From Sphingobacteriales bacterium 50-39 (GTDB taxonomy: Bacteria; Bacteroidota; Bacteroidia; Chitinophagales; Chitinophagaceae): 64,000 nucleotides of DNA. A program made the position numbers and the translations under genes. The number at the start of each line of letters is the position of its first letter. The first letter of the stretch is position 1. This document shows, piece after piece, positions 15,815 through 37,606 of the stretch. The stretch is from assembly GCA_001898505.1 (NCBI GenBank), contig MKTZ01000005.1:62001-126000 (forward strand). Direction: 5' to 3'. The notes under the pieces are model-generated. The model saw nothing but the letters and a program-made list of their open reading frames with translations, was not told where the DNA came from and did no database searches.

Positions 15815-15867
15815 CCAATTTTTAAAAGCAACTTTACTACTTTTTGTATGTAAAAAGTAAATCTTTT

Positions 15868-16149: not shown

Positions 16150-16175
16150 GAGAAAATAAAATCATAATTAGATTT

Positions 16176-17507: not shown

Positions 17508-17647
17508 ACTAATTCACATTTCAAACTAAAAAAGACAAATCTATTTCAGAGTACATTGGTGTACGGGGTACAACTACCTACATATCTTGGTGGTTCAATA
17601 GACAATAGAATACCTTTGATTTATACTGCAAACCATAAGTCATTGCT

Positions 17648-19102: not shown

Positions 19103-19118
19103 TTTATAAGAATTTATT

Positions 19119-22100: not shown

Positions 22101-22445
22101 AAAAATGGTTTTCCCAGTAATTGAATATAAAACGGGTTGATCGCGCAGGCATTTGTCGAGGAGTTCGGTGACGGCGACATCTGTCATGTGAACAGAAACA
22201 GCCTTAGTGTCATCAAGCACCGTCTCGTTGTACATGAACACAAAATCGGTTTGTTTCTCAATGGTTTTAAAGATCGTTTTAAGCGGCAAATTATCGCCAG
22301 AAATACTCACCTTCTGTGAGTACCCTGCGGCGCTGACCTGGAGAAAGCCGGTTAGAAGAAGTATGGCTGTGAGTCGCATATACCTGGAAATAGGGTGAAC
22401 CTGCCCCTTTATGCAAAGGGGAATGGATGCATTTAAAAAAAGCAT
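19119..22445 (-). CDS. SusC/RagA-family TonB-linked outer-membrane transporter
   Basis: The protein has 1108 residues with a leader around MRLTAILLLTGFLQVSAAGY; a start at 22379 is possible. In order: an STN domain (about 45-125), which in this class signals to FecR; a carboxypeptidase-like domain (about 135-220, IVGTVQSDDGKPLDGATILL); a plug with the RagA signature DIESVEILKDADATAIYGSR; and a barrel. It imports or exports a substrate together with SusD. The STN domain and the upstream FecR and sigma genes indicate cell-surface signalling control. It looks complete. Confidence 0.93.
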   Translation of the reverse strand: MLFLNASIPLCIKGQVHPISRYMRLTAILLLTGFLQVSAAGYSQKVSISGDNLPLKTIFKTIEKQTDFVFMYNETVLDDTKAVSVHMTDVAVTELLDKCLRDQPVLYSITGKTIFIKKKQPQLKVEAPAIASPLSQIVGTVQSDDGKPLDGATILLRNTKISTVTNAKGQFFLPNVPQGTYVLEVTYIGYEKYFQSIVVEKSELIVTATMKASANNLDETVVKGYYNTTTRLNTGDVSIVKGEEIQRQPLSDPILALQGRVPGLSITQLSGTIPGASFRLLLNGQNSIANGNSPLFVVDGVIIPSQSLTLFSGGGGYSQSPFNALSPGDIESVEILKDADATAIYGSRGANGVLLITTKKGKAGKVKLDISLANGIGKDAREIKVLNTSQYLSMRREAFTNDGQIPSGNDHDINGDWDTTRYTDWQHYFFGGTARYTNGQISFSGGNENTQFLLTGGYNKQTTILPGDFADKKGNAHLSLSHLSTDKRLKLTASAMFVNDRNNSYQNANTLGYIFLPPDAPSLYDSQGNLNWQNSTWTNPLALLLRTYKSVTDNLVANASISYKLIQGLDAKISIGYNSDQMKDYIASPITSFNPATARSTNRRASFSTNSIKSSIIEPQLSYNRILGNGDLNMLIGASLQNSSQDRIQMVGINYPSDALMPNISAASTKIITGVNSLQYKYVAGFGRLNYNWKERYLINLTARRDGSSRFGSGKQFGNFGAFGTAWIFSKERFFLNKMKWISYGKIRASYGTTGNDQIPDYQYLSSYSSYSNTYQGLAGLYPSRISNPYYSWELVKKLEFGLDFSLLNDRISINSSYYRNRTNNQLVGYSLPSITGFSYVQANLPAVIQNTGFEISATSSNIRTKNFSWMTSVNLTIPKNKLVSYPNIEGSSYANQYVVGQSLFTRKLYQFSGVNDSSGIYQFETKGGSTYSPSYPDDLTTFKQVAPSFFGGLNNHFKYKNWQLDFLIQFVNQTGYNYFNTTLTVPGAFGQNPNQPTVVLNRWTSPGREAQVQRYSQDYGSPASTAYFNIASFGTNSITDASFIRLKNIELSFELPSPLIERLQLQKVQIYLQGQNLLTITHFKVFDPETNDIAPLLMLVAGINITL

Positions 22446-22888: not shown

Positions 22889-23338
22889 TTATAGCGTCAA
22901 ATCAAAGGATTCCACTTTAGGCGGTAAACATTGCTTGTCGGTACAGGCCTGAAAGGTTACTGTCCCTGAAAATGAGGTTTTGACTGTGGCTTTTAAGGTA
23001 ATCTTTTGCACAAAATCAACTGTATGGGCGTATTGGTATTGTTTGATGTCCAGGGCTTCGACTGTCTGTGTCTCCTTCTGCCCTATTTCCCTGGCTGTCC
23101 CAACCGGTGTGACGAGCGGGTTTGCGCGATAAGCGATCTGTGTTGGCACAGCAATGGCCTCCTTTGGCTGCTGCTGCGCGTATATATGCCAGCCTTCCTG
23201 CATGGTCGCGGTCAAGTGGAGCTCGTAGGTAGCGTTGTCGACCTTAACGACGGAATACTTCCATTGGACCGGGTTCTGTGCCTGGGCCATATTGCATATA
23301 GTGGCCAGTGAACAAATGATGAATATGCGACTAATCAT
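22889..23338 (-). CDS. Periplasmic DsbD N-terminal-domain-like protein
   Basis: The 149-residue protein has a signal peptide ending near NMAQAQ (residue 21) and one domain like the N-terminal periplasmic part of DsbD: VQWKYSVVKVDNATYELHLT, GWHIYAQQ, and near the end VTFQACTDKQCLPPKVESFD. The two cysteines of ACTDKQC match the usual redox pair of this domain. No membrane or thioredoxin part follows. It overlaps the FecR stop by four bases, so it is coupled to the regulator. Module 2 has no counterpart. Confidence 0.82.
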   Translation of the reverse strand: MISRIFIICSLATICNMAQAQNPVQWKYSVVKVDNATYELHLTATMQEGWHIYAQQQPKEAIAVPTQIAYRANPLVTPVGTAREIGQKETQTVEALDIKQYQYAHTVDFVQKITLKATVKTSFSGTVTFQACTDKQCLPPKVESFDLTL

Positions 23339-24522
23339 GGGCTAACGACTATTTTTTTGTTTTCAATGGTAAAGTGAACATCAGGGCTTTCCAGGCCCTG
23401 GAGGACCATGGAGAGCGGCAGGTTACGTTCTATTTTCCCTTTAAATTTTTGTGGCTTAAAGTTGCCACGGTATTCCACGGAAACGTCGTACCAGCGGGCA
23501 AGCTGGATCATGACCTCGGGGAGGTCATCGCCTTCGAAATGGAAATACCCATTTTTCCAGGATATGACCTCGTCAACATCCACGCCGTGTTCCACTTTCA
23601 CAGGGCCGCGTGATTTCAGGGCTGCCCTGTCGCCGGGGTTCAGGACAGCTTTATGAGCGCCATCCGTTATTTCTACTAAACCCTCCAGCAAGGTGGTACT
23701 TTGGATGGACTCATCGTTGTAGGCGCGCACATTGAAGTGTGTGCCCAATACGCGGATCGCCATGTTTTCCTTATGTACTACGAAGGGGTGCGATGCATCC
23801 CTGGCTACCTCAAAATAAGCCTCACCTGTTAGTTCTACGTCGCGTTGTGCCCCTGCAAATGCGGAGGGGAAACGCAGCGAAGAAGCATTGTTGAGCCATA
23901 CTTTCGTGCCGTCTGAGAGCACGACCTGGTATTGGCCCCCGGCAGGCGTGGTCAGCGTATTGAACCGGATGGTAGCCGTTGCCCCTACAGCGGCGTACTT
24001 CACCTGCCCGTCTGCGGTCTTTTCCACGCGGCTGTTAACCTGGCGGGCAAGGAAACCCGTGCCCACGCTGTCGAGTACGATATGCTGGCCATTGTCCAGG
24101 GTTAATACGGCACGGTTGCCACCCGGTAAACGGTCGTTGACAGGTTGCACTGGCGTTTTTGCAACTGGCGGCGGGGTGGTCTTGCTTCTTTCCAGGAATA
24201 GCCCGGCCCCTGCAAGCAACAAGAGGACAGAGGCTGCTGCCACCCATACCCAGCGGCGGGAGATTTTCCGGACAGGCGCCTGTGGGCTGGCCAAGACCGT
24301 GTCCCAGCCAAGGGCCGACCAGTTTGCGGCACGCGCTTTTTCAGCTTCCATGAAAATAGCGGCGCTTTCAAGGATATTGTCGTCGTTGATCCGCTCTTCG
24401 AATGCCTGCCGCCTCCCCGGTTTGGCGTCGAGAAAAGCATTCAGTTCCTCCAGTTCCTCGTGCGAAATATCCTGGCCTCGGTATTTTTGGGTTAATTCCG
24501 TAATCCGTGTTTTGTCTTCCAT
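23335..24522 (-). CDS. FecR-family anti-sigma factor
   Basis: The 395-residue protein has a cytoplasmic N-terminal part (about 1-88) that should bind the sigma factor, one membrane helix (VWVAAASVLLLLAGAGLFL), and a periplasmic FecR domain (GGQYQVVLSDGTKVWLNNAS, LTGEAYFEVARDASHPFVVH, VLGTHFNVRAY). A DUF4974-type C-terminal domain follows (FHFEGDDLPEVMIQLARWYD). It should receive the signal from the SusC STN domain and release the sigma factor encoded just upstream. Confidence 0.93.
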   Translation of the reverse strand: MEDKTRITELTQKYRGQDISHEELEELNAFLDAKPGRRQAFEERINDDNILESAAIFMEAEKARAANWSALGWDTVLASPQAPVRKISRRWVWVAAASVLLLLAGAGLFLERSKTTPPPVAKTPVQPVNDRLPGGNRAVLTLDNGQHIVLDSVGTGFLARQVNSRVEKTADGQVKYAAVGATATIRFNTLTTPAGGQYQVVLSDGTKVWLNNASSLRFPSAFAGAQRDVELTGEAYFEVARDASHPFVVHKENMAIRVLGTHFNVRAYNDESIQSTTLLEGLVEITDGAHKAVLNPGDRAALKSRGPVKVEHGVDVDEVISWKNGYFHFEGDDLPEVMIQLARWYDVSVEYRGNFKPQKFKGKIERNLPLSMVLQGLESPDVHFTIENKKIVVSP

Positions 24523-24639
24523 AGTTCGAAATTTACACCCGCCTGTATATATTACTCGGCGGGTTGCGAAATGGACTAATCAAATAAAAAAAAATTTAAA
24601 AAAAAGTAACATTGGGAAAATAAATAATAAGGTAGCCCT

Positions 24640-25233
24640 CTATTTTAAAAAGAAAAACGCCACCACTGCTGTAACGACGAGTTCCGTCACGTGCCGGTTT
24701 TGCAGGGACTCACGCAGTTTTGCCAGTGCCCGGGCCAAGTGGTTCTTGACGGTATTGGCAGAGATCCCCAGCATGGCAGCGATCTCTTGATTGCTCAGCT
24801 CATCTATATAACGCAGCTTGAGGACAAGGCGTGCCCGTTCCGGCAGCGCGTCCATGCCCTTGAAAACTGTGTGCAGGAAGTCGGCGTCGAGCTCCTCGCG
24901 GGAGGAATCACCTTCCGCGGAAACCGACTTCAGGAATTGCTGCTGCCGTTCTTTTAATGTTTTGAGATCCCGGATGTAGGTGAGGGACCTGTTGCGTGCA
25001 GTCACGTAGATAAAATGCTTTACGTGCTGGAGGTCTTTGAAATCTGCGCACCTGTCAAAAAGTTTTTGAAATGTCACCAGCGCAATATCCTGGGCTTCCT
25101 GCATGTTACGTGTGATACGGAAACTGGTAAAGTAAATCTTGTCGTGATAGCGCATGAATATTTCCTGGAAGGCAGGAGGGGAGCCGCGGCTAAATTCGCG
25201 CAGCAAAATTTCGTCATCATACTTGTCAGCCAT
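24640..25233 (-). CDS. ECF-type RNA polymerase sigma factor of module 1
   Basis: From the ATG at 25233 the protein has 197 residues; the frame is open to 25335, but the first 34 residues are not family-like. Region 2 is visible in FSRGSPPAFQEIFMRYHDKI and DIALVTFQKLF. Region 4 is visible in ALPERARLVLKLRYIDELSN and QEIAAMLGISANTVKNHLAR. The end is a hydrophobic tail, ELVVTAVVAFFFLK, which the orphan sigma at 5303 lacks. FecR follows after 117 bp. It should drive the susC operon of this module. Confidence 0.92.
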   Translation of the reverse strand: MADKYDDEILLREFSRGSPPAFQEIFMRYHDKIYFTSFRITRNMQEAQDIALVTFQKLFDRCADFKDLQHVKHFIYVTARNRSLTYIRDLKTLKERQQQFLKSVSAEGDSSREELDADFLHTVFKGMDALPERARLVLKLRYIDELSNQEIAAMLGISANTVKNHLARALAKLRESLQNRHVTELVVTAVVAFFFLK

Positions 25234-25533
25234 AATAAAATTTGCGAACGGTTCAGTAGAAATTATCAAGCCTGCCGGATAAGGTTCGTAAGGCGTGTGG
25301 CTGATCACTGAAGTATCCAGCAGTCTCCCTGTCAAATGTCGACTCTAAAAAGCTAACAGTCAAGTTTTAAGCCAAGTTTTTTACAGGAAGGTTGTAAATA
25401 AGGGAAGGTTTGATCCGCCGGGCAAAGCGGCATTTAAAAATTACGATTTTTTTCAAAGCCATGGGCGAACCAGGACGGGATACTAAGCATATCCGCTATA
25501 TGTTTATAAGTGTTTACACTTAAAACAGATCGC

Positions 25534-25860: not shown

Positions 25861-27471
25861 ATGAAAGATTACAACGCTACCGGCGCTGCACGCCCGGACG
25901 GAAACCTTCATATGCCACCTATAGTAAAAAATGCGCCAAGCGACAAGACCTGGGGCGCATTCCTGAGAGACCGGAGTATCTGGAGTGGTGTGCTGCTCTT
26001 TCTTCTCATCGCCGAGTTTGGTATTTTCAAGCTGTGCTATCCTTACCCGGATTTTTTCTCCGACAGTTACAGTTATATTATTGCGGCAAGCGAGCACCTC
26101 AACGCCAACATCTGGCCCATTGGTTACTCGAAATTCCTGGCAGTATTTCACTGGTTTACGCATTCAGCTGTTGCGCTCAACTTTTTCCAGTTTTTGTTCC
26201 TGGAGCTCGCGGCAATGTATTTCGGGCATACGATTGAATACTTTTTCCATACAGGGGACAAGACACGTATCTTCATGAACATTTTCCTGTATTTTAACCC
26301 ACTGTTCCTTTACCTGGCCAATTATGTAACGACCGACGCATTGTTTGTCGGCTTGAGCATCATCTGGGCTACACAACTGATCTGGGTGATCAAAAAGCCC
26401 AGCCCTTACCAGTTTATTATCATTTCGGTGGTGTTTTTTATTGCCTTCACTTTCCGGTATAATGCCATGTTTTACCCGGTCATCACTGCCCTTGCCTATT
26501 TTATTTCCAGGCAACGGGCCTGGGTAAAGGCCGTGGGTATCGTCACAGGGCCACTGCTGATCATCCCCTTTATCCTGTTTACATCCGACGCAGCTAAGAA
26601 AATGACCGGGACGGCGCAGTTCCCGCCTATCCTCGGCGGGTGGCAGTGGGCAAACAACGCCTTGTATATGCGCGGTTTTATTGAAGAAGACTCCGCGAAT
26701 TTTCCTACGGCTGAAACCCGCGAATTAGACGGCATCGCCAGCCGCTTTTTTGCGCAGCCCTCACGCCCGCAGGATGGCCTTGCATCCTATGTAGCGAACT
26801 TCTTTATCCGGCAACCGGAAGCGCCATTAAAAAAATACCTGCATAAACATTACCCAAATATAGAAACAGACGTGGACGAGGTGGTTGCCTGGGGCAAAGT
26901 TGCGCCGGTGTTCCAGCAGTATGGCCTGTTCCTGATCAAGCGCCACCCGTTGGCATTCCTCCGGTACTATATGCTGGTCAATTATAAAAACTATTTATTT
27001 CCGCCGCTTGAAAAGCTCGAGATCTACAACGTAGGGCAGGATAAAGTGTGGCCAATTGCTGCTTATTGGTTTGATTTCCCCTCGTTAAAGATCTCCGTGA
27101 TCTCTAAAAGCCTGCAAGGAATAATTTTACTCTTGTTCCCCACCCTGTTCTGTGTGTTGAATATTTATTACGGATGGAGCCTGTTCACCATGTTCAGGCG
27201 CAAGGAATGGCAAAATACCAGCAGAACCTTCAAAGGGGTAATGGGTATAGTGGCTCTTTTCCTCCTATTGAATTGCTGCTTCAGCGTATTTGCCAACATC
27301 ATCGTAATACGGTACCAGGTATTTCCCATGATCGTATTCCTGGTGTTCAGCATGCTGCTCACAGACCAGCTGGAACTAAAGAAGGCATACATGGGCAACC
27401 CGGCTCCGGGCAAACCGGACAAGAAGGGTGGTTACGGCGGTGCGCATGAACTAAGCCCCAATATTCTGTAA
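25861..27471 (+). CDS. GT-C-like multi-helix membrane protein
   Basis: The 536-residue protein has a short polar N-terminus and about ten to twelve membrane helices. After the first helix it has DSYSY with Asp68, resembling the catalytic acidic loop of GT-C glycosyltransferases that use lipid-linked sugars. It is homologous over its length to residues 535-1033 of the module 1 fusion protein (WP-YSKFL, GGWQ-ANNALYM, IYNVGQDKVW). It likely works in the inner membrane; the donor and acceptor are unknown. The lanthionine-synthetase gene follows after 18 bases, so they form one operon. Confidence 0.75.
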   Translation: MKDYNATGAARPDGNLHMPPIVKNAPSDKTWGAFLRDRSIWSGVLLFLLIAEFGIFKLCYPYPDFFSDSYSYIIAASEHLNANIWPIGYSKFLAVFHWFTHSAVALNFFQFLFLELAAMYFGHTIEYFFHTGDKTRIFMNIFLYFNPLFLYLANYVTTDALFVGLSIIWATQLIWVIKKPSPYQFIIISVVFFIAFTFRYNAMFYPVITALAYFISRQRAWVKAVGIVTGPLLIIPFILFTSDAAKKMTGTAQFPPILGGWQWANNALYMRGFIEEDSANFPTAETRELDGIASRFFAQPSRPQDGLASYVANFFIRQPEAPLKKYLHKHYPNIETDVDEVVAWGKVAPVFQQYGLFLIKRHPLAFLRYYMLVNYKNYLFPPLEKLEIYNVGQDKVWPIAAYWFDFPSLKISVISKSLQGIILLLFPTLFCVLNIYYGWSLFTMFRRKEWQNTSRTFKGVMGIVALFLLLNCCFSVFANIIVIRYQVFPMIVFLVFSMLLTDQLELKKAYMGNPAPGKPDKKGGYGGAHELSPNIL

Positions 27472-27489: not shown

Positions 27490-30177
27490 ATGCAAATGCC
27501 TGTTACATCGCCAAGCGTACCCTTGTCCCCGGCCACGGGCTGGAATGAATCGGATTTTTCCACCATCCTTTCCGCGCATGGCGCAGGCTTTGAAGCGGCA
27601 GACAACTACTGGCGGGTAGGAGCACTGAAGCAGGTACAGGGATGGATACTGGACCTTTCGTTTACCTTATATGACCTGCCTGCCGGTTTGGAGGCAGTGG
27701 TGCCGATATTGCTGGTGGACAACATAGCTTTCCAGGTAATCGCTGATATGCAGACAGCCACAGATTTTGTACACGGATATGTCGGGATTGAAAAGATCGG
27801 AAAAATGGTCTCCGTGTTTTGCCCGGATGACCGTAAAGCTAACCAACTGGCTGCGGAACTGATTGCAGCAACATCAAGATTTAACGGCCCTGCTGTTTTG
27901 ACGGATAGGTACCTCGGAGGAACTGTATACGCCCGGTATGGCGCTTTCGAGCCGGTAATGGTTGAAACGAAAGCAGGAAGAAAAGAACCGCATATTTACA
28001 TGCCCGACCTCACGCTGGTGCCCGATACTGAGCAGATACCTTTCCAATTGCCTGCGTGGGTTCGCTGGCCGTTTGAAAGGCTGGCGGCGGCTGAGCCCCC
28101 GAAACCTAAAAAGGTGCTTAACCATTTTTACCGCCCGGTCGTGTTGTTAAAGGAAGATGTAAGAGGTAATGTTTACAAAGGGCTATATCTCAAAAGCCTG
28201 CTGAGGGTAAAGGACTGCGTGATCAAACAGGGGAAGAAAGGGATGACGTCGGACATATACGGCAGGGAAATGCACCACCGCCTCGCCTGGCAGTGTGCGC
28301 TACACAGGGCTATGGAAGGCATTGTGCCCCTACCTAAAATTTATGACCTGTTTGTGGTGGAGGGTGACACCTACCTGGCCATGGAATATATCAACGGCAA
28401 GGCACTATACGACCGGGTAAAAGAAATCAACCACCAGGGCGCATCCTGGCAGGGGCTGGAAAGCGCCCAACGGCTGGCGATCCTTGGTTATATCAGGGAG
28501 ATCGTCTTCCTAGTCGGGGAATTTCACAAGCAGGGTTTTGTCCACAGGGATGTCCATCCCGGCAACTTTATGGTAGATAAACAGGACCGGCTTGTCCTCA
28601 TTGATATTGAATTGGCTTATTCGGTACGGGAGCAGCAGCCCGAGCCGCCCTTTACCTACGGAACCGCGGGGTTTATGTCGCCGGAGCAACAGGATATTTT
28701 GGCACCAACCTTTAAAGAAGATATTTATGGGATTGGCGCGACGATGGTAAACCTGATGACGGGGGTATCACCTTCCAAGCTGGAGTTTGCGGGCAAGGGC
28801 CAGCTCAGCGAGGCGCTTGCCCTGATGATCGGAGACCCAGTGATGGAGGAAATGGTGATACGTTGCCTGGACAGGGCACCTGGCCGCCGACCGGAAATTG
28901 CGGAGATCCTAAGCGTCCTTGAGGCTTCGCTCGCCGCCTTGAAATCGGGGCCGAAGATCGCTTCTGAAAAAAATGAAATAGACACTGCTTTAGAAACGCA
29001 GGTTAGAACTGCCCTAAATAAAGCCCTTCGGGGGCTGGCAGAGGAGCCTGTGATCATTTCGGAGGGCCTTTGGTATTTTAAAATGGTGAAGGAGGGAAAC
29101 TTTGGTGTTCCGCAAATGCGGGAATATACAAAATACCCGGGCCTGCGCAATGGCATGGCGGGCGTGCTCCTGGCCATAGCCAAGGCCTTACAAGCGGGAT
29201 TGAGCATTGAATACCTTGTACCCAACTGCCTGAAGGCAAGGGATTATCTTGAAACGTTCCTGACAAACAGTACAGAGGTATCTAATGCTGGCTATTACGA
29301 CGGGAAAGCAGGGATAGCAGTTGCTATAGCAGAAGCTATTAAAAATGGCTTGGTGCCAGACGGCGCAAAAAACCGGGGGTTGATATACACTGCCCTCAGC
29401 AGCAGCGGCGGGGAGACAGGCGGGCTACATTACGGTGATGGCCTCGCAGGGATTGGGATGGCCGTACTGTACTGCCATCAATACCTTGAAAAAGATTATT
29501 CTACCAGGAGGTTGACCGAAATAACCAGTATCCTCTTAAGCACTCAGAACCGGGAAGGGCTTTGGGAACGCAGCGGCAGGCCAAAAAAAGACGCAGGAAA
29601 AATATCGCTGGGATTTGGCCAGGGGGACTGCGGGCTTATCTGGTACCTGCTTCACTCCTATTCCTTGTCCGGGAACAAGGCCGAAAGAAATGCGCTCGAA
29701 AGAACTGTACCCAAGTTACTGAAAGCTGCTGGCGGGATCACGGAAACAGCTATGGGCACATACCTGGAAAAAAATACTAACGGGTTGATCCTGGGCGATG
29801 AATTACCAGGGATGCTTCACACCATGATAAAAATGAGCGAAGTGCTGGGTAAACACGAATGCAGGGCCGCAGCTGAACAGGTGCTTCGCCTGCTGCCGGA
29901 TAGATTCACGAACAACAACTTTACCGCATGGAACGGGTTAGCAGCCCTGGGCGAAGCTTATCTCAGCGCATGGCATGTATTCGGCAATCACGAATGGAGG
30001 CAAAGGGCAACATGGATTGCTGCCCTGTATGCCCACCTGCATGGGAATAACCCACATGGCTATGCGTTTTGGATGACAGACGAAAGTGATGCACCCACCG
30101 CATCTTTTATGAATGGGAACAGCGGTATCATCCATTTCCTGGCTCGTTATCTGTCAGGGGGGCGGGGATTTTATTGA
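27490..30177 (+). CDS. Class III-type lanthionine synthetase (lyase-kinase-cyclase)
   Basis: The 895-residue protein has the three-part layout of LanKC/LanL enzymes, which phosphorylate Ser/Thr, eliminate phosphate and may cyclise peptides. Residues about 20-215 resemble the N-terminal lyase region (GWILDLSFTLYDL, YARYGAF at 147-153). A kinase domain spans about 220-490: Lys246 in CVIKQG, HRDVHPGNF with Asp354, IDIELA with Asp372, and GTAGFMSPEQ. A LanC-like cyclase domain spans about 550-895 (GLRNGMAG, YYDGKAG, GFGQGDCG, NGNSG). The zinc ligands of classical LanC are absent: the Cys and Cys-His positions are Gly710, Met874 and Asn875. This favours class III over class IV. Six peptide genes follow. 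Confidence 0.85.
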   Translation: MQMPVTSPSVPLSPATGWNESDFSTILSAHGAGFEAADNYWRVGALKQVQGWILDLSFTLYDLPAGLEAVVPILLVDNIAFQVIADMQTATDFVHGYVGIEKIGKMVSVFCPDDRKANQLAAELIAATSRFNGPAVLTDRYLGGTVYARYGAFEPVMVETKAGRKEPHIYMPDLTLVPDTEQIPFQLPAWVRWPFERLAAAEPPKPKKVLNHFYRPVVLLKEDVRGNVYKGLYLKSLLRVKDCVIKQGKKGMTSDIYGREMHHRLAWQCALHRAMEGIVPLPKIYDLFVVEGDTYLAMEYINGKALYDRVKEINHQGASWQGLESAQRLAILGYIREIVFLVGEFHKQGFVHRDVHPGNFMVDKQDRLVLIDIELAYSVREQQPEPPFTYGTAGFMSPEQQDILAPTFKEDIYGIGATMVNLMTGVSPSKLEFAGKGQLSEALALMIGDPVMEEMVIRCLDRAPGRRPEIAEILSVLEASLAALKSGPKIASEKNEIDTALETQVRTALNKALRGLAEEPVIISEGLWYFKMVKEGNFGVPQMREYTKYPGLRNGMAGVLLAIAKALQAGLSIEYLVPNCLKARDYLETFLTNSTEVSNAGYYDGKAGIAVAIAEAIKNGLVPDGAKNRGLIYTALSSSGGETGGLHYGDGLAGIGMAVLYCHQYLEKDYSTRRLTEITSILLSTQNREGLWERSGRPKKDAGKISLGFGQGDCGLIWYLLHSYSLSGNKAERNALERTVPKLLKAAGGITETAMGTYLEKNTNGLILGDELPGMLHTMIKMSEVLGKHECRAAAEQVLRLLPDRFTNNNFTAWNGLAALGEAYLSAWHVFGNHEWRQRATWIAALYAHLHGNNPHGYAFWMTDESDAPTASFMNGNSGIIHFLARYLSGGRGFY

Positions 30178-30224
30178 CAAAAGTTCTTTGCGCAATATCA
30201 CTGGCGAGTTAACTAAGCGGTGAA

Positions 30225-30289
30225 ACCGGGACCTGCCCCCGGAGTAAGGCAGGAAAAGGGGAAGCCGAAAACCTTGCAACAGAGTAGGC
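30225..30289 (+). promoter_or_regulatory. Conserved leader RNA-like element, copy B
   Basis: A CCTGCC/GGCAGG hairpin is followed by AAAAGGGGAAGCCGAAAACC, then T, a spacer and AGAGTAGG. The core matches copies A, A' and C while the hairpin bases differ but still pair. It lies 30 bases before peptide gene 1, in the gap after the synthetase gene, and could adjust the ratio of peptide to enzyme. Confidence 0.6.
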
Positions 30290-30318
30290 ACCATTACATA
30301 AACCTATCAATGTTTTTT

Positions 30319-30579
30319 ATGAAAAAGTCAAAAATCTTCATCGGCGCCGCTACTTTGATGTTGGCTGTTACTGCCTTTGTAGCTACTAAAGCAAATTACA
30401 AGAAATTCGCTACGTTCAGCACAGCTGTAACTGCAGCCGGCGGCGTAAAAGTTATCGGTTCCAGTATTTTCACTACTGTATCTTCTGCTGGCTCCCAGGC
30501 TTACTTAGCTACTGCTGGTGGTACAACTAAGGCTTTGTTTACCAAAGTCAACAGGACCAAGATTGCTTATCTTAAGTAG
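30319..30579 (+). CDS. Tandem short peptide 1, candidate precursor
   Basis: The 86-residue product starts at the ATG at 30319; the open frame goes back to 30220, but paralogues fix the start. A basic and hydrophobic leader, MKKSKIFIGAATLMLAVTAF, is signal-peptide-like, with a possible cut after ATKA. The rest is rich in Ser, Thr, Ala and Gly (FATFSTAVTAAGG, SIFTTVSSAGSQAYL) and ends LFTKVNRTKIAYLK. It has no cysteine. It follows the lanthionine synthetase gene and the leader element, so it is a candidate substrate, but a lanthionine ring could not form within it. Confidence 0.75.
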   Translation: MKKSKIFIGAATLMLAVTAFVATKANYKKFATFSTAVTAAGGVKVIGSSIFTTVSSAGSQAYLATAGGTTKALFTKVNRTKIAYLK

Positions 30580-30617
30580 TCCCGGTAAATTGGGAAACCA
30601 ATTTGCTTCAAAACATG

Positions 30618-30649
30618 GCATTGCGCTGGTGTACACACCGGTGCAATGC
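30618..30649 (+). terminator. Strong hairpin after peptide gene 1
   Basis: GCATTGC and GCAATGC close a long imperfect stem with GGTGT/ACACC inside, followed by TGTTTG rather than a full T run. A smaller hairpin with a GAAA loop, AAATTGG/CCAATTT, lies just before it at 30587-30604. Together they may slow transcription or protect the 3' end of the peptide 1 message. Confidence 0.5.
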
Positions 30650-30760
30650 TGTTTGTACATACCTACCCATTTTCATAACTGTTGTTTAAAAAAGCAGGGC
30701 CGCAATAAGGGCAACCTTGTCAAACGCTGGTTGATTTGAACAATATCAACGCCATTAATT

Positions 30761-31021
30761 ATGAAAGTGACATTAATCCTGGCAAGCGGTATATTAACCA
30801 TATTGAGTACGGCCGTCATTTTAGTAACGAGGGCAAATAAAAGGTTCACCGGGTTTTCTACTGCGGTAAACTGGAACGGCACGATCCGCGTAATTGGACC
30901 GAATATATTTACCACCGTAGCTGAACATGGAAGCCGCGCTTTCCTAGTAAGTGAGGGCGGTACACAGGAATGGTACCTGTTCACTAAGGTTAACCGTACA
31001 AAGCTTGCGTACCTGAAATAA
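30761..31021 (+). CDS. Tandem short peptide 2, candidate precursor
   Basis: The 86-residue product has the leader MKVTLILASGILTILSTAVI and a core aligned with peptide 1: FTGFSTAVNWNGTIRVIG, NIFTTVAEHGSRAFL, GGTQEWYLFTKVNRTKLAYL and a final K. It has no cysteine. The N-terminus differs most, while the last 15 residues are nearly the same as in peptide 1. I do not find the leader element directly upstream. Confidence 0.7.
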   Translation: MKVTLILASGILTILSTAVILVTRANKRFTGFSTAVNWNGTIRVIGPNIFTTVAEHGSRAFLVSEGGTQEWYLFTKVNRTKLAYLK

Positions 31022-31125
31022 AAACAACCCTGTCGTAACGGCGCAAAATTTCTGTAGCAGGACCGGGGCCAACATAATTGGCACCGGAGGATGCTTATAT
31101 TTTTCAAAAAAAACAATACGCTGTT

Positions 31126-31380
31126 ATGAAAAAAACGCATTTATTCGTTGTAATTGCCTTTGGTACATTATCTGTGACAGCCTTCCTGCGTGCCCAAGCC
31201 GGCAGGTTGCAAGCTGTCTTCCACACTGCCGTAACAGTCAACGGCATAAAGGTATACGCAAACTTCACCACAAATATCAGCCGGGGCTGCCCAGTTTTCC
31301 TGCTAACCGCAGCGGGAACAGCAAGAACACTTTTTACAGCCCCATACAGGCTTAAACAGGCTTACCTAAAATGCAACTGA
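31126..31380 (+). CDS. Tandem short peptide 3, two-cysteine subfamily
   Basis: From the ATG at 31126 the product has 84 residues; the frame is open from 31078. The leader is MKKTHLFVVIAFGTLSVTAF. The core reads VFHTAVTVNGIKVYANFTTN, then ISRGCPVFLLTAAGTARTLF, and ends RLKQAYLKCN. It has two cysteines, at GCP and at the penultimate residue. It pairs with peptide 6 as a second subfamily of the same family. Confidence 0.7.
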   Translation: MKKTHLFVVIAFGTLSVTAFLRAQAGRLQAVFHTAVTVNGIKVYANFTTNISRGCPVFLLTAAGTARTLFTAPYRLKQAYLKCN

Positions 31381-31389
31381 TGAATTGAA

Positions 31390-31439
31390 CCTGCACAAGA
31401 TCCCGCAGGAGGGGATGCCGAAAACCTTTTAGAGTAGGC
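31390..31439 (+). promoter_or_regulatory. Conserved leader RNA-like element, copy C
   Basis: A CCTGC/GCAGG hairpin is followed by AGGGGATGCCGAAAACCT, a four-base spacer and AGAGTAGG. It is the most compact of the four copies and lies 23 bases before the frameshifted peptide gene 4. Confidence 0.6.
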
Positions 31440-31462
31440 GAAACTTGTAAACCTTATTTTTT

Positions 31463-31731
31463 ATGAAAAAGTCGAAAATTTTTATCGGTGCTGCCACAGT
31501 TGTGCTGGTGATAACTACATACTTCTCCGCAATAGCAAACTATAAAAAATTTGCCACCTTCTCTACAGCGGTCACCGCCGCCGGTAATGTCAGGATCATT
31601 GGGTTGAATATATTTACAACCATAGCTGCCCATGGCAACCAGGTGTTCCTCCTAATGGAGGAACGCAGGAGTGGTATTTTTTCACAAAGGTAAACAGGGC
31701 AAAACCGGCCTACCTGAGAACAGGTATGTAA
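31463..31731 (+). pseudogene. Tandem short peptide 4, frameshifted
   Basis: The first 65 or so residues match peptide 1 closely: MKKSKIFIGAATVVLVITTY, NYKKFATFSTAVTAAGNVRI, NIFTTIAAHGNQVFL. At about 31652-31660 the frame is lost, and the product would end as MEERRSGIFSQR at 31693. In the neighbouring frame the family ending continues as GGTQEWYFFTKVNR, AKPAYLRTGM and a stop at 31729-31731. A single-base indel explains this. The regulatory element upstream is intact. Confidence 0.8.
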
Positions 31732-31791
31732 ACAGAAATTATCGTCATGAATTTTTATTTCAACGCAAACTACGACTATCAACTAATTACC

Positions 31792-32055
31792 ATGATTAAA
31801 AGAAAAATATCCGTCATTGCTGGCGCGGTAATCCTGGCTGCCCTCGCGGCCTCTGCCCGTATGCATGCCGCAAAAAAGTTCGCAAGCTTTTGTACCTGCG
31901 TGACGGCTGCAGGCACGGCGCGCGTTAATGGCAGTACCAATATTTTCACAACCGTTTCCAGCGCAGGCTCACAGGCATACCTTTTTACGGTGCAAGGGAC
32001 TTATAAGGTGCTGTTTACAAAAGTGAACAGGACAAAAATTTGTTACCTTAAATAG
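31792..32055 (+). CDS. Tandem short peptide 5, three cysteines
   Basis: From the ATG at 31792 the product has 87 residues; a start at 31747 is possible but unlike the family. The leader is MIKRKISVIAGAVILAALAA. The core reads KKFASFCTCVTAAGTARVNG, NIFTTVSSAGSQAYLF and LFTKVNRTKICYLK. It is a peptide 1-type sequence that has gained cysteines at FCTC and KICY. With these it could in principle form thioether or disulfide links. Confidence 0.7.
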   Translation: MIKRKISVIAGAVILAALAASARMHAAKKFASFCTCVTAAGTARVNGSTNIFTTVSSAGSQAYLFTVQGTYKVLFTKVNRTKICYLK

Positions 32056-32291
32056 GCTTAAAAAGGTTACTGCGCCTAAATTTTCAAAAACGTACTGACC
32101 TTTACCGTGCTCTTATAAGAGAAGATGGGAATTACAATTGCACATCAGTTATCGCTCTGGTTTGTAGTGAGCTTCTTTTGAAAGCCATTTTTGACCTTAT
32201 CGTAACGGCAAAAGAGATTCAATTAACAACTCGGTTCAATGGTGTTTTTTGAAAATCTGTCATCCATTTTTTGTAATATTAAAACGCTGTT

Positions 32292-32546
32292 ATGAAAAAG
32301 AAGCCCCTGTTCATTGTTTTGGCCTTTGCAACGTTATCCGTAGCCGCATATCTGCGCGCAAAGGCTACAAAGCTGCAATTAACATTCCACACCGCAGTAA
32401 CTGCGAACGGAGTAAGAGTGTATGCGAATTTCACGACAAATATGGCGGCGGGCTGCCCAACATATTTGTTGACCGCGGGGGGTATGGCGAGGACATTGTT
32501 TACGGTCGCGTACCGGGTCAAACAGGCATACCTCGTCTGCAATTGA
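32292..32546 (+). CDS. Tandem short peptide 6, two-cysteine subfamily
   Basis: The 84-residue product has the leader MKKKPLFIVLAFATLSVAAY and the core FHTAVTANGVRVYANFTTNM, AAGCPTYLLTAGGMARTLF, ending RVKQAYLVCN. It closely matches peptide 3, including both cysteines. Both genes have TCGTAACGGC 91-92 bases before the ATG and ACGCTGTT directly before it. It is the last gene of the + strand operon and converges on the protease gene with a nine-base gap. Confidence 0.7.
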   Translation: MKKKPLFIVLAFATLSVAAYLRAKATKLQLTFHTAVTANGVRVYANFTTNMAAGCPTYLLTAGGMARTLFTVAYRVKQAYLVCN

Positions 32547-32555: not shown

Positions 32556-34163
32556 TTAGGGGTGCGCCTGGTATTTCGCTGCAAGCAGCAGCGCATTGTA
32601 GGTATTGACTATACCGCCCGAGCTACAGAGGTCGGCAAAGGGCCGGGTGATCCTGGCGGCATTGCTTCCTGGTTGTATGACCGGGTGGCTCACCTTGTAA
32701 ACAGATTGTCGGATGATGGCTGCCACCTGTGCAGCGGTGAGGTGGGGGAAGAGTTCCATAATCAGGGCCGCAAGGCCTGCGACTACCGGTGTGGCCATGC
32801 TCGTACCGTTGAAATGCTCGTATTTTGAACCAGGTATGGTGGAATAGATCCTGACACCGGGGGCAAATACATCTACTGCTGCCCTGCCATAGTTGGAGAA
32901 AGGCGCGGCCAGGGTGGAATCGTCTGCCCAACCCGAAGCGCCAACATCCAGCCAGGCTTCAGCTTCGCCGGAGCCGTCCGCATAGTGTTTGTTGGGGAAA
33001 AAGGATTGCGTACCCAGTTGGTCAAGGTTCTTGCCGTCGTTCCCGGCAGCGTGAACGATCAGGACATTGTGTTGCATCGCGTATTTTACGGCAGCGTCTA
33101 CGTCCTTCTTTCCCGGGCTGCCGTACAAGCCCAGGCTAAGGTTGATGACCCGTGCGCCATTGTCTACCGCGTACCGGATGGCAGACGCAAGGTTTGCGTC
33201 CACCATCTTTGGGTACAATGCGGAGTAGATTTTAATGGGCATGATGAGCACGCTGTCGGCAATCCCATCCACGCTATCGCCGTTTTCACGGTTGGCAGCA
33301 ATGATGCCGGCGATATGGGTGCCATGGAAGGTAAGGGGCTGGCTATGGTAAAAATCGTCTGTTGCAGAGAAGGTAAACACCCTGTCATAGCAGATGTTGG
33401 CGTTTTGTTCCAGGTACCCCGCGACGATACCGGCGCTATCGCTTCCGGTGGTAAGATGGCCAACGCAAAATGCCAGGGATTGCCGCGCTTTGTCTATGGC
33501 CTCCGTTTTAAAACTGGCAAAATCGGGGTAGGCAGGAAGTTGGGCTAAAATGGCGTCGATGATCCATTTATCTGAAGAATCCTTTTGCCGCCACTGCCGA
33601 AGCTGCGCGATCGTGGGGTTGTTTGATCCAATGTGTTCCTGCAGGGTGTCCATTATCCGCTGTGCTGATTTCACATCATCTAGTGAACGGGCCAGTTTTT
33701 CCCGGATGTCCTCGTAGTCTTTCCAAATTTTCCTGAACTGCTGGTACGGTAGCCGCAGCTCGGGCGGTACCGTAGTGTAGGACAGGCTGTCAAAGAATTG
33801 CTTTTTATGCTGGGCCAGGAAAACAAGGCTGTCACGGGAAACGGGCAGCCCTGCAAAATTCCACCCGTGCACATCATCTGTATAGCCATTGTGGTCATCG
33901 TCCAGGTGATTGCCTGGGATCTCGCCGGGGTTTGCCCACAGATGCCCTTTCAGGTCGTGATGGCTGGTATCAATGCCGCTGTCTATTACCGCGACAATGA
34001 CCTGGTACCGCTTTCCGGCAATAAGTTGTTTGTAGGCCTTCTCCGTGCTGGTGCCGGGTACCCCGTTTTCGAGCAGGTCCTTATTTTGCCAGTTATCCGA
34101 TTGCGCCAGAGCGGCCCAGGGTATGGCTGCCAGCAGCCCGGTAATGAGCATCCATGTTTTCAT
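32556..34163 (-). CDS. Exported S8 (subtilisin-type) serine protease
   Basis: The 535-residue protein has a signal peptide ending near WAALAQ (residue 21). The triad is Asp61 in AVIDSGIDTSHHDL, His280 in TFHGTHIAGIIAA and Ser455 in FNGTSMATPVVAG; Asn375 in HAAGNDG is the oxyanion residue. About 200 residues separate Asp and His, much more than in subtilisin, so a helical insertion is present. It is the last gene of the module 2 susC operon and faces the peptide genes. A role in cutting the peptides is plausible by position only; similar proteases are also common as general periplasmic enzymes in this phylum. Confidence 0.88.
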   Translation of the reverse strand: MKTWMLITGLLAAIPWAALAQSDNWQNKDLLENGVPGTSTEKAYKQLIAGKRYQVIVAVIDSGIDTSHHDLKGHLWANPGEIPGNHLDDDHNGYTDDVHGWNFAGLPVSRDSLVFLAQHKKQFFDSLSYTTVPPELRLPYQQFRKIWKDYEDIREKLARSLDDVKSAQRIMDTLQEHIGSNNPTIAQLRQWRQKDSSDKWIIDAILAQLPAYPDFASFKTEAIDKARQSLAFCVGHLTTGSDSAGIVAGYLEQNANICYDRVFTFSATDDFYHSQPLTFHGTHIAGIIAANRENGDSVDGIADSVLIMPIKIYSALYPKMVDANLASAIRYAVDNGARVINLSLGLYGSPGKKDVDAAVKYAMQHNVLIVHAAGNDGKNLDQLGTQSFFPNKHYADGSGEAEAWLDVGASGWADDSTLAAPFSNYGRAAVDVFAPGVRIYSTIPGSKYEHFNGTSMATPVVAGLAALIMELFPHLTAAQVAAIIRQSVYKVSHPVIQPGSNAARITRPFADLCSSGGIVNTYNALLLAAKYQAHP

Positions 34164-34182: not shown

Positions 34183-34884
34183 TTAAAAGTGGTTTACCTG
34201 AAAAACGGTTAAGGGTGTAGGGGAATTGGGGTCCGAAGAACCTGCAATGACGACGCTGTTATTCTTGTGATCCGTATAATACCATGTAAAGGTTGTCAGG
34301 AGGTCGCCGGTGGCGGGGTCGCGGATTTCAAAATTGTATCCGCCCGGGCCGTTAATGTCGGCGTTATATGGTACAAATGGGCTGACCCCTTTATAGGAAA
34401 GCGTGGCAACGTCGCCTTGTGTGCCTCCTTCCAGGTTAATCGCCAGTGCCTTGCTGTCTCCGGACAAATTGATAAATCGTACGCCGGCTGAATCGGAAGT
34501 AAAATTGACGATATTGTCCCTTAGCAGTAAGGTATCCGGATGGGTCGTATCCCCTGTTAGATAAAGCGAATAGATGCCGCCGCTGGCAAAAGGTATGTCA
34601 GCTGTTAATATTGCTTTTGTCGTGTCGGTGTTCTGGATAATACTAACCGGCTTTGTGCCGCTGGGTGGCGAGTACAAGGAAAAACCGGTATAACCGAGAG
34701 ATATTGAATTGGAAAAATATTTGGGCGCGTCCTTCGAGAATAGGACATATAAGCTATTCGAGGTCGGAATGGCGTTCACCACGACGACCGAGGCCGGTGT
34801 TACCGGGTTCACGGTTTTGGAACAGCCGGATAACGCAGCGGCTATCAGGATGGCGCAGGTGGTAAAGTAAGAACGGAAATTCAT
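34183..34884 (-). CDS. Lipoprotein with DUF4397-like domain
   Basis: The 233-residue protein has a lipoprotein signal, LIAAALSGCSKT, with the acceptor Cys at residue 22. The rest is a beta-rich domain: ASVVVVNAIPTSNSLYVLF, GGIYSLYLTGDTTHPDTLLL, and VRFINLSGDSKALAINLEGG, which resembles the DUF4397 pattern of an N-A-x-P start and VRFINLS repeat. It is likely anchored in the outer membrane. It lies between the TlpA-like and protease genes of the module 2 operon. Its function is unknown. Confidence 0.72.
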   Translation of the reverse strand: MNFRSYFTTCAILIAAALSGCSKTVNPVTPASVVVVNAIPTSNSLYVLFSKDAPKYFSNSISLGYTGFSLYSPPSGTKPVSIIQNTDTTKAILTADIPFASGGIYSLYLTGDTTHPDTLLLRDNIVNFTSDSAGVRFINLSGDSKALAINLEGGTQGDVATLSYKGVSPFVPYNADINGPGGYNFEIRDPATGDLLTTFTWYYTDHKNNSVVIAGSSDPNSPTPLTVFQVNHF

Positions 34885-34911: not shown

Positions 34912-36102
34912 TTACCGGTTTTCCGCCGGTTCAGGGTTCAGGATGGTATCGAGATACCATCGAAGTTCAAGGCCGTAAACATCCCAGGCTACAATGTTTC
35001 CCTCCGTATCTAAAAGGACGTTCGTGGTGTTGGGGCCAGCCAATGACCCGAGTTCATGGTACACTGTGTCAACAACAGCCTCTCCTCTAAGGTCAATCAC
35101 ATTTTGCCAGGGGTACTGCTCTGTCTGAAGCGTTTGTTTCCAGGTGTCCAATTTTGTATCTGTCGATACTGCCACGACGTTCAGCCCTTTATTATGATAT
35201 TGCTGGTACATCGCTTTTAACTCTGCATCAAAAGCAGCCCTGTTATAAGAATTGGTAGCCCAGAACCTCACCAGCGTCAGCTTGCCCTTCGAAGGAAGAT
35301 CCTTCAGAGAAACAGTTTTGCCCTGGCCGTCCGGCAGGCTAAAATCAGGCATTTTTTTACCAACCAGGAGGGGTAAGCGCTGTTGGAGCATTTTGCCTGG
35401 CACGCTTGCCCGTAGATGGCCATCCATCTGGTCGTAGACATCAGCCCAGCCGCCGTCGTGGTCACCGCCCTCATACATCGCCAGCAGGCCCGCGGCAGGG
35501 AGGAATAAGGGGTCCAGGTGGTTAAGAAAGCGGTTATTCAGGCCCTGGCGGATGCCTTTTCTTGCCCGCATCAGGCCGTCTACCAGTTTCCTGTCATACC
35601 CGATGGAGTCCCGGATTTTCTGCAGTTCATGGTCGATCATCCCGGTGGATTGGGAATACATGTCGTCTATAGCCCAGATCAGGTGAAAGGCTGTATTGGT
35701 AGGGCTGCCATCAGAAACCAGGATACGGTCCAGCAACTGCATCCGCTCTTTGCTGATATCTTTGTCATAGCGCAACTGGATAGCCTGGTTGTTGTCAATA
35801 AACATCCGGTACACATGGTCAATCCTCGGAAGCCACATCCAATATACTCTCGGCCCATCGGGTACATGGCCTTCGATATGAAATTCCCCATTTTTGACAA
35901 ACGCCGAATCCCGGTGCACTTCGACCGCCTCTCCCGGGTTATATACCATCATATTCATCAGTACTTTATCACCATCCTTCAAGCCGTTAATATGGCCGGT
36001 GAGTGAATAGCCGTCATTTTTTTGGGCAACTACAGAGATTGGGGACAGGGTTATTGTGATAGCGACAAGGTTAAGGAAAAGGTTTCTTTTTCCGTTGTAC
36101 AT
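34912..36102 (-). CDS. TlpA-like protein lacking the CxxC motif
   Basis: The 396-residue protein has a signal peptide (to about VVAQ, residue 27) and a DUF4369-type beta domain (about 30-120: YSLTGHINGLKDGDKVLM). A helical linker leads to a thioredoxin/AhpC-like domain at about 248-390 (MPDFSLPDGQGKTVSLKDLP, LTLVRFWATNSYNRAAFDAE). The usual FWAxWCxxC is replaced by FWATNSYNRAAF, so both active cysteines are gone. It cannot act as a dithiol oxidoreductase and may instead bind a partner. It occupies the place of the intact TlpA of module 1. Confidence 0.8.
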   Translation of the reverse strand: MYNGKRNLFLNLVAITITLSPISVVAQKNDGYSLTGHINGLKDGDKVLMNMMVYNPGEAVEVHRDSAFVKNGEFHIEGHVPDGPRVYWMWLPRIDHVYRMFIDNNQAIQLRYDKDISKERMQLLDRILVSDGSPTNTAFHLIWAIDDMYSQSTGMIDHELQKIRDSIGYDRKLVDGLMRARKGIRQGLNNRFLNHLDPLFLPAAGLLAMYEGGDHDGGWADVYDQMDGHLRASVPGKMLQQRLPLLVGKKMPDFSLPDGQGKTVSLKDLPSKGKLTLVRFWATNSYNRAAFDAELKAMYQQYHNKGLNVVAVSTDTKLDTWKQTLQTEQYPWQNVIDLRGEAVVDTVYHELGSLAGPNTTNVLLDTEGNIVAWDVYGLELRWYLDTILNPEPAENR

Positions 36103-36139: not shown

Positions 36140-37606
36140 CTAATTATATCCTGGGTTTTGTACCAGGTTGGGATCGGTAATAAGTTCTGTCGCAGGTATA
36201 GGCCATAGCTTGACCTCCGGGCGCCACCCTGCCCTGCTTCCCAGCACCGCGTCTGCCTCTCCTCTACGTTTCAGGTCGAACCAGCGGTGGCCCCATTCTG
36301 CAAAGAATTCAACCCGGCGCTCCTGGGCTATAGCCGCGAGAGTACCTGCCTGGTCAAGCGATGGGTCCAGGTCGTTCAACCCAGCCCTGCGGCGAATCAT
36401 GTTAATGTCGTCCTGCGCTCCTGCCAGGTCTGTACCTGTCTTTGCACGCGCCTCGGCGCGGATGAGGTATTGTTCCGCATAGCGCAGCACCATATAGTAC
36501 TCCGTAACGCCACCGGCAGTGCCCACTTTCACTTTGTATTTGAATGGGAAGAAATAGTACTTTCCACCAAATTTGGTACTGTCCACCCAGTCGCTGCGGC
36601 GAAGGTCGTTTGGTTCGAACACACCCAACAGGCCAGCCGTCAGGCTATAAGCAGCGCTCGATGTATGGCTTGTGGGGATGAGGTTGGTACCTTCGACCGT
36701 GGCGTATTTATTGGTAGCTGCATCCTGGGTCTGCCATTGGAGGATGGCCTCATCGCTGTTCTTCAGGAATACGGAATCAGGGTCACCCGGCAGCCTGAAC
36801 AGGCCGGAATTAATCATCAGGGATGCCTGCTGTTCGGCATTGGCCCAATCTCCTTTATACAGGTATACCCTTGCCAGCAAGGCGGTGGCTGCCCATTTGT
36901 TCGCGCGGATCTTCTCACCGCCCCCTGCCGAATAATCACTGGGCAAGGCTGCCTGGGCGTCCGTGAGGTCCTGTATAATCTGGCTATATACGCTATCTAC
37001 AGGAGACCTTTTGAGCAGGTTGATCTTGGACCATTCGGATTGCGTCACGATGGGAATGTCACCAAAGAGATTCACGAGGTAGAAGTGCGCAAAAGCCCGC
37101 AAGAATTTTGCCTCCCCCCTAAGTGTTGTCTTGAGCGCCGGCGATACCCCCTTTGAAGCGGACAGGCTTTCAATCGCAGCATTGGCCTGGTAAATTTGGT
37201 TATAGGCAGGAGTCCAGAACGACATCCCTATCTGCCCATCCGTTGAAAGGAAAGAATATTTTTGGAACTGGGAGTATAAGAATCCGGCTATATTAAGCTC
37301 GTCGGAACTTGCCCCTCCCGCTATGGTAGTGAGCCCATTGGCGTACCGGAGATTGTAAAAAGTAGACCCGGAATTCATCTGGCTGTAAATGGAGGCAATG
37401 GCCGCATTGGCGTTGGGATCATTTTCGAACAATTTTTCTATTGTTATAGTATTATTTGGCTGGGGGATTTCCACCAACTTATTGCAGGAGCAAAAGAAAA
37501 GAATCAAGAAAGCAACAATCCACGGCCCCATTAAGAGCTCAATGAGTGTTTTCGTCCTGATAGTTGGTGCGAAGATCAATTTAATTATTTCAGAGCTGTA
37601 ACGCAT
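36140..37606 (-). CDS. SusD/RagB-family outer-membrane lipoprotein
   Basis: The 488-residue protein has a lipobox-type signal in AFLILFFCSCNKLVEIPQPN; an internal start at MGPWIV is possible. It has the SusD hallmarks LRGEAKFLRAFAHFYLVNLF, GDIPIVTQSEW, RANKWAATALLARVYLYKGD, LRYAEQYLIRAEARAKTGTD, EWGHRWFDLKRRG and LITDPNLVQNPGY. It starts nine bases after the SusC stop. It should pair with that transporter. No glycoside hydrolase is nearby, so the ligand need not be a sugar. Confidence 0.93.
   Translation of the reverse strand: MRYSSEIIKLIFAPTIRTKTLIELLMGPWIVAFLILFFCSCNKLVEIPQPNNTITIEKLFENDPNANAAIASIYSQMNSGSTFYNLRYANGLTTIAGGASSDELNIAGFLYSQFQKYSFLSTDGQIGMSFWTPAYNQIYQANAAIESLSASKGVSPALKTTLRGEAKFLRAFAHFYLVNLFGDIPIVTQSEWSKINLLKRSPVDSVYSQIIQDLTDAQAALPSDYSAGGGEKIRANKWAATALLARVYLYKGDWANAEQQASLMINSGLFRLPGDPDSVFLKNSDEAILQWQTQDAATNKYATVEGTNLIPTSHTSSAAYSLTAGLLGVFEPNDLRRSDWVDSTKFGGKYYFFPFKYKVKVGTAGGVTEYYMVLRYAEQYLIRAEARAKTGTDLAGAQDDINMIRRRAGLNDLDPSLDQAGTLAAIAQERRVEFFAEWGHRWFDLKRRGEADAVLGSRAGWRPEVKLWPIPATELITDPNLVQNPGYN

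Follow-up and report, generated by a model that had tools for sequence, protein, structure and literature searches.

A LanKC-like synthetase beside tandem, partly cysteine-free peptide genes in Sphingobacteriales bacterium 50-39: a possible peptide kinase of secreted mini-proteins

In a stretch of 64,000 nucleotides of the genome of Sphingobacteriales bacterium 50-39 (Chitinophagaceae; contig MKTZ01000005.1, positions 62,001 to 126,000; hereafter the window), the gene of a LanKC/LanL-like lanthionine synthetase is followed by short peptide genes, some of which encode no cysteine. What does such an enzyme do with peptides in which lanthionine cannot be formed? An earlier inspection without database searches (the sequence-only reading) described a class III-type synthetase with six tandem precursors and suggested that the enzyme may only phosphorylate them. 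As judged from sequence comparisons, the locus is real and conserved, and the enzyme probably makes no lanthionine here. The explanation that we tentatively prefer, which may well be right but falls short of being probable, is that the window enzyme descends from LanKC, works as a peptide kinase on secreted mini-proteins rich in Ser/Thr and is not a lanthionine maker.

The six genes are paralogous and lie 3′ of the synthetase gene on the same strand (Table 1). Both the synthetase and the six genes described earlier are present; the fourth gene, p4, is frameshifted, with a 3′ part that matches the peptide family in another frame (31654-31719, E 0.03), and five intact copies are therefore left. 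Peptides p2, p3, p5 and p6 are 48-63% identical to p1, and the existence of five intact paralogues, along with relatives in other genomes, rules out that they are chance open reading frames (ORFs). Cysteines of the window peptides were counted after residue 25. By this count p1 and p2 contain none, so that lanthionine rings are indeed impossible in them; p4, named together with them as cysteine-free, also has none over its open part, but it is a broken gene. The peptide N-terminus includes a basic start and a hydrophobic stretch, and is helical at residues 3-27 in a low-confidence AlphaFold model. The class III leader motif [LI]x[LI]Q (LELQL-like) was found in the first 45 residues of none of 108 peptides from this and similar loci (cassette peptides, see below). 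The mature parts contain 22.6% Ser+Thr in a set of 60 peptides and 25.4% in a set of 36, against 12.1% in 373 other ORFs, which are unrelated ORFs of 150-600 amino acids, most of them not secreted. The alignment of 11 peptides from five loci has near-invariant Thr52, Thr53 and Thr75 and invariant Tyr84. Outside the start, its invariant and near-invariant columns are Leu, Thr and Tyr, and no Lys or His nucleophile is conserved among these relatives except in the initial MK.

The synthetase combines a RamC_N lyase-type domain (48-198), a protein kinase domain and a LANC_like domain (551-890) in one chain. Its NCBIfam score is higher for class IV LanL (325.2 bits) than for class III LanKC (241.8 bits), and both are below the curated cut-offs (650 and 575, respectively). 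The zinc ligands of the cyclase domain, read from alignments, are absent, and for this reason the enzyme is class III-like. The class III-type label is thus justified by the cyclase domain and not by the scores; a strict assignment to either class is ruled out by the cut-offs, the zinc ligands and the lyase residues. The zinc set was found in no Bacteroidota protein aligned, the actinobacterial controls aligning poorly in this region. The host genome (7.9 Mb) encodes a second LanKC homologue, 38% identical to the window synthetase. Its third LanKC-type gene (locus L078, G000:C9) codes for a lyase-kinase protein of 463 amino acids without a cyclase domain, near a GT-C-like protein, MauE and peptides.

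Four of the seven lyase residues invariant in 17 of 17 control proteins are lost in the window enzyme, the alignment indicating the substitutions K53I, H55D, K82Q and Y110F (Lys, His, Lys and Tyr replaced with I, D, Q and F). The controls were 15 actinobacterial proteins together with PDB entries 8car and 9wj0, picked with a pattern that presupposes the His (GW[KRIV].H) or, as a fallback, by taking the longest ORF. Among 25 full-length Bacteroidota proteins, the window enzyme is the only one devoid of all four residues. The Lys matching ThurKC Lys65 and VenL Lys51 is retained in one of these proteins (L085) and in all 17 controls; the His is retained in 19 of the 25. ThurKC numbers (Lys65, His67, Lys94) were transferred by motif and spacing, ThurKC itself being outside the alignment, and the VenL paper names Arg83 where the Lys94 position is used here (PMC2843593). 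In ThurKC, the K65A mutant showed no turnover, K94A left the peptide unmodified and H67A gave mixed dehydrated and phosphorylated intermediates (PMC10604976). The catalytic residues of the window kinase, K246, D354, N359 and D372, are intact, and the equivalents of these four residues are conserved in 28 of 29 Bacteroidota proteins pairing a kinase with a lyase and in both kinase-cyclase proteins. The exception, a LanKC homologue at L058 (2000-4567), has degenerate kinase catalytic residues, and no peptide was found on its 6-kb contig. The identity ratio per domain of the window enzyme also indicates the least drift in the kinase (0.91, versus 0.83 in the lyase and 0.81 in the cyclase). Since most catalytic residues of the lyase are missing, phosphate elimination would be absent or poor and lanthionine would not be formed. 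The earlier suggestion of mere phosphorylation thus gains support from the loss of lyase residues and the preservation of kinase residues.

The tie between peptides and synthetase exceeds chance. Peptides with a like N-terminus occur within 4 kb in 23 of 25 full-length synthetase loci (all except L045 and L058) and within 1 kb in 19, and in 20 of the 23 they are located downstream on the same strand. The 25 synthetases include 15 from the scan of family genomes, nine more of the same genus and one from Olivibacter. Because the training set of the leader profile consisted of 64 peptides chosen by eye from LanKC-type loci, the value of 23 of 25 is not fully independent, unlike the counts in L253-L292. 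The profile overlooked p2, which a spurious ORF on the opposite strand hides, and at least the peptides of L266 and L267, which were recognised by eye. In the counts, the five intact peptides of the window were entered by hand, p4 and the second-cassette peptide were omitted, and L254 was dropped as a duplicate of L051. Within the window, the leader profile matches nothing outside the two cassettes. In the whole host genome, a profile built from the five intact copies detected (E<0.01) only the cluster and one gene directly behind the second LanKC homologue. The search for full-length relatives in 394 family genomes (E<1e-10) yielded eight rows, seven from the host genome and one from G065, all adjoining a synthetase. 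The survey of genome neighbourhoods thus bears out the supposition that synthetase and peptides belong together.

Of the 394 family genomes, 32 encode a homologous synthetase, whole or as a split part, and the pathway, which had been thought unusual for the phylum, is not unusual in this group. PF25816 was matched in four of 395 class genomes. A profile scan of wider genome contigs gave 80 loci, mostly generic Ser/Thr kinases, from which Olivibacter jilunii (L088) and Chitinophaga pinensis (L089) were taken as relatives, while 12 others led to control genomes. In viral contigs, 12 loci were matched, each over part of the kinase region only. Kinase-cyclase proteins without a lyase domain were observed in L052, L053, L055, L056, L061 and L089, together with another peptide type (N-terminus ASAVTAA...P.K, often two cysteines), and in L055 and L056 separate lyase-kinase proteins are placed beside them.

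The phylogenetic tree placed the synthetases of the five loci with cysteine-free peptides (the window, L042, L043, L081 and L084) in one fork with moderate support (90/92), and the window, L043 and L081 in a sub-fork (97/89). This indicates that one synthetase clade has long been associated with cysteine-free peptides, and within it the window enzyme evolves fast.

Disulfides need an even number of cysteines, and lanthionine does not. Among 59 peptides of synthetase loci, eight contain no cysteine and 45 of the remaining 51 contain an even number; in synthetase-free loci, the number is even in 30 of 31 peptides with cysteine. Taken once per locus, the commonest count is even in 18 of 19 synthetase loci and in 17 of 17 synthetase-free ones. 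The relatedness of the peptides weakens these statistics, yet the even rule holds across loci whose counts differ (2, 4 and 6). Even counts both with and without a synthetase fit disulfides better than lanthionines, and the cysteines of the cysteine-bearing members probably form disulfides. The absence of cysteine, to which the sequence-only reading attached much weight, is accordingly less telling. Long Thr/Tyr-rich peptides, some of them cysteine-free, were noticed in the synthetase-free loci L263, L261, L266, L267 and L274.

The peptide genes also share a leader element. Over 282 kb, comprising the window and 13 loci, all 15 matches to the DUF805b RNA (RF02914) at its gathering score of 35.6 end 25-54 nt before a peptide start. 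Besides the window, such matches were found in L043, L046, L047, L081, L264, L265, L278, L284 and L288, with or without a synthetase, and none was found in L042, L260, L290 and L291. The spacings fall into two groups, 22-28 nt (22 belonging to the sub-threshold match) and 48-54 nt. The whole host genome contains four matches that pass the cut-off and a fifth at 33.5 bits, all preceding peptide genes, 150 of 2991 candidates having been scored and eight weaker matches (24 bits or less) left aside. The search of the accessible literature for DUF805b or DUF6520 found no paper. The RNA nearest the synthetase lies in the leader of p1 and, as this position suggests, probably controls that gene.

More widely, peptides of this type are part of a Bacteroidota cassette in which a synthetase is often missing. 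The cassette consists of the DUF805b RNA leader, peptides with a signal-like N-terminus, a weakly GT-C-like membrane protein, MauE, thioredoxin-like proteins and SusC/SusD; among the 25 synthetase loci, 20 encode SusD, 18 the GT-C-like protein and 13 MauE. Relatives of the membrane protein adjoin all three LanKC-type genes of the host genome and occur in 57 of 394 genomes, and among the 100 places listed, 11 have a whole or partial synthetase no more than 13 kb away. Of these 100 places, 40 were fetched, best first, most of those already known beside LanKC being skipped; 37 of the 40 contain no synthetase, and peptides matching the leader profile are encoded in 20 of the 37. At this wider family level, homologous peptides without any synthetase, which the sequence-only reading would have taken as a sign of a purely positional link, are thus partly the case. 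The host genome encodes further peptides with MauE and SusD on contig C1 and probably on C10. Of 64 cassette peptides, 10 are similar to DUF6520 (PF20130) at E<=0.01, the closest at 3.6e-7; in the window only p1 matches it (11.7 bits, E 0.34), not reaching the Pfam cut-off of 25.4 bits.

The window membrane protein has no Pfam match of its own; two of 36 relatives match PMT_2 and two DUF6020 at E<=0.1, and no relative of solved structure was found at E<=1. The AlphaFold models of the membrane protein and the peptide (predicted local distance difference test score, pLDDT, 44 and 49) are too poor for a fold search, and the assignment of a GT-C fold by structure was dropped as too weak.

These data can be combined into the following scheme. 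Before the peptides are exported, the synthetase would bind them in the cytoplasm; their N-terminus would serve both as the enzyme leader and as a Sec signal. The kinase would be the working part, phosphorylating Ser/Thr, and the near-invariant Thr of the F-T-T and F-T motifs (Thr52, Thr53, Thr75) are candidate sites; the lyase-type domain would be mainly a scaffold or leader binder. The peptides would then pass through Sec, be cut and be completed outside the cell by other cassette proteins: the GT-C-like membrane protein may glycosylate them, as weak matches hint, thioredoxin-like proteins or MauE may form disulfides in the cysteine-bearing members, and the S8 subtilase is a candidate processing protease. 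The adjacent SusC/SusD with FecR, under its sigma factor, is a candidate receptor or importer. Taken as a whole, namely a synthetase lineage turned peptide kinase, secreted lanthionine-free phosphopeptides made from cysteine-free mini-proteins, a DUF805b leader, decoration outside and a dedicated SusC/SusD-FecR receptor, the scheme is doubtful.

Several observations weigh against the explanation that we prefer. The window lyase retains Lys105, Asp139 and Arg149, all invariant in the 17 controls, and some elimination may remain. In 14 of the 25 Bacteroidota homologues the loss is limited to the one Lys, which would allow elimination by an altered mechanism. The ThurKC K65A and K94A mutants left the peptide unmodified and not phosphorylated, so that loss of the lyase could mean no modification at all. 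The cysteine count of p5 is odd. Glycosylation relies on weak profile matches, the model of the membrane protein being too poor to use, and the signal-like N-terminus on sequence features and a peptide model with a mean pLDDT of 49. Finally, the branch of the window synthetase is the longest of the five (1.32) and one of the six peptide genes is broken, which would also fit decay.

A positional or decayed status, where the synthetase is decaying or acts on something else, the rest of the cassette alone matures the peptides and the neighbourhood is inherited, is somewhat unlikely. The long branch, the drift of the lyase and cyclase domains, the broken peptide copy and the synthetase-free occurrence of the peptide type, both in 20 of 37 GT-C-like loci and in the second cassette of the window, are consistent with it. 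The intact reading frame and kinase residues speak against it, as do the persistence of the synthetase beside the peptides in 23 of 25 loci and the cysteine-free peptides tracking one synthetase clade.

The residues retained in the lyase could instead be those of an ordinary dehydratase, working through remaining or substitute residues and converting Ser/Thr into dehydroalanine and dehydrobutyrine; the cysteine-bearing copies would obtain lanthionines, and the cysteine-free ones would either remain dehydrated or be attacked by Lys or the N-terminus. The three domains are of full length in 25 of 25 proteins, the His and Lys of the lyase are retained in most homologues, Lys105, Asp139 and Arg149 are present in the window, and a LanKC subgroup is known to add His to dehydrobutyrine besides labionin (noursin, PMC10206099). 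We nevertheless regard this as unlikely, considering that the Lys65 equivalent is gone in 24 of 25 proteins, that the window enzyme lacks four of seven control-invariant residues, that cysteine counts are even and that His is missing after residue 25 in p1 and p5. Very improbable is a new crosslink class, in which the enzyme phosphorylates and dehydrates, and Lys, His or Tyr close rings on cysteine-free peptides. The metal-free cyclase-type domain is retained, seven Lys in p1 and four in p2 follow residue 25, and noursin again offers the precedent of His joined to butyrine (PMC10206099), but lyase activity unsupported by the residues would be required and the 11 relatives have no conserved nucleophile. 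The peptide kinase remains the reading that we prefer among these.

The features surrounding the locus are listed in Table 1. The second cassette of the window (11704-16110 and the convergent Sus genes) is synthetase-free. The G+C content of this cassette, taken over positions 14001-22000, is low at 0.38-0.39 compared with about 0.50 around it.

Table 1. Coordinates of the peptide-synthetase locus, the second cassette and adjoining features in the window
Feature	Coordinates	Strand	Details
Second cassette: FAD oxidoreductase fused to GT-C-like membrane domain	11704..14874	+	PF01593; own profiles
Second cassette: MauE	14871..15362	+	PF07291, E 1.7e-26
DUF805b RNA	15331..15365	+	40 bits; precedes broken peptide gene of second cassette
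Second cassette: broken peptide copy	15417..15675	+	In-frame stop
DUF805b RNA	15782..15816	+	41.5 bits; precedes intact peptide of second cassette
Second cassette: intact peptide	15868..16110	+	80 aa, 2 Cys
Second cassette: thioredoxin-like protein, SusD, SusC with STN	16176..22445	-	Convergent with peptide genes
FecR and extracytoplasmic function (ECF) sigma factor	23335..25335	-	Upstream of second cassette's SusC
Multi-spanning membrane protein, weakly GT-C-like	25861..27471	+	536 aa; upstream neighbour of synthetase
LanKC/LanL-like synthetase	27490..30177	+	895 aa; lyase-type, kinase, cyclase-type domains
DUF805b RNA (RF02914)	30255..30290	+	50 bits; 28 nt before p1
Peptide p1	30319..30579	+	86 aa, 0 Cys
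Peptide p2	30761..31021	+	86 aa, 0 Cys
Peptide p3	31126..31380	+	84 aa, 2 Cys
DUF805b-like RNA, sub-threshold	31408..31440	+	33.5 bits; 22 nt before p4
Peptide p4, frameshifted	31463..31719	+	Open to 31693; remainder in other frame from 31654
Peptide p5	31792..32055	+	87 aa, 3 Cys
Peptide p6	32292..32546	+	84 aa, 2 Cys
S8 subtilase	32556..34163	-	Convergent; PF00082, E 3.6e-51
DUF4397 protein	34183..34884	-	PF14344, E 4e-16
TlpA/AhpC-TSA thioredoxin-like protein with DUF4369	34912..36102	-	
SusD/RagB	36140..37606	-	PF14322, PF07980
SusC-type TonB-dependent receptor with STN domain	37616..40984	-	Plug, STN
FecR anti-sigma	41356..42528	-	PF04773, E 7e-18

Compared with known systems, the locus shares with the LanKC enzymes ThurKC, RamC/AmfT and NorKC the lyase-kinase-cyclase order, a cyclase-type domain without zinc ligands and adjoining precursor genes, and differs from them in the lost lyase residues and in a score far under the NCBIfam cut-off. 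Unlike LanKC precursors, the peptides have a signal-like N-terminus and no LxLQ-type motif, and some are without cysteine. With LanL (VenL) the enzyme shares the domain order and its best NCBIfam score, but it possesses no zinc ligands and is under the cut-off, and VenL Lys51, His53 and Tyr108 (PMC2843593) correspond to I, D and F in it. The noursin-type LanKC_Hbt is a LanKC that uses a nucleophile other than cysteine; however, noursin also needs cysteine for labionin (PMC10206099), and here p1 and p5 lack a His after residue 25. Bacteroidota ribosomally synthesised and post-translationally modified peptides (RiPPs) of MNIO enzymes have precursors with signal peptidase I or II (SPI or SPII) signals that are modified in the cytoplasm and are often found beside SusC/SusD, so the signal-like N-terminus alone is not new; the MNIO enzyme reads a C-terminal motif, whereas the enzyme here is LanKC-type (PMC12636315). 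Small proteins of DUF6520 resemble the cassette peptides in the N-terminus, the p1 match being far under the cut-off. No description of a Bacteroidota LanKC with cysteine-free precursors was found in the accessible parts of the literature searched.

If the peptide kinase reading is true, a lanthionine product can no longer be assumed from homology to a lanthionine synthetase. Such substrates would then also escape genome mining that filters out cysteine-free ORFs; any ORF without cysteine was discarded in the 2020 RODEO survey (PMC7268733). The DUF805b RNA would gain a target in these genomes, and a testable secreted mini-protein cassette would be defined, of which the one window contains both a form with a synthetase and a form without.

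Positions 44000-64000 of the window contain conjugative transposon genes, including a TraG ATPase (56892-59348) and a CtnDOT TraJ (62186-63379), and a large methylase/helicase-like protein is encoded in the same stretch at 49170-54692.

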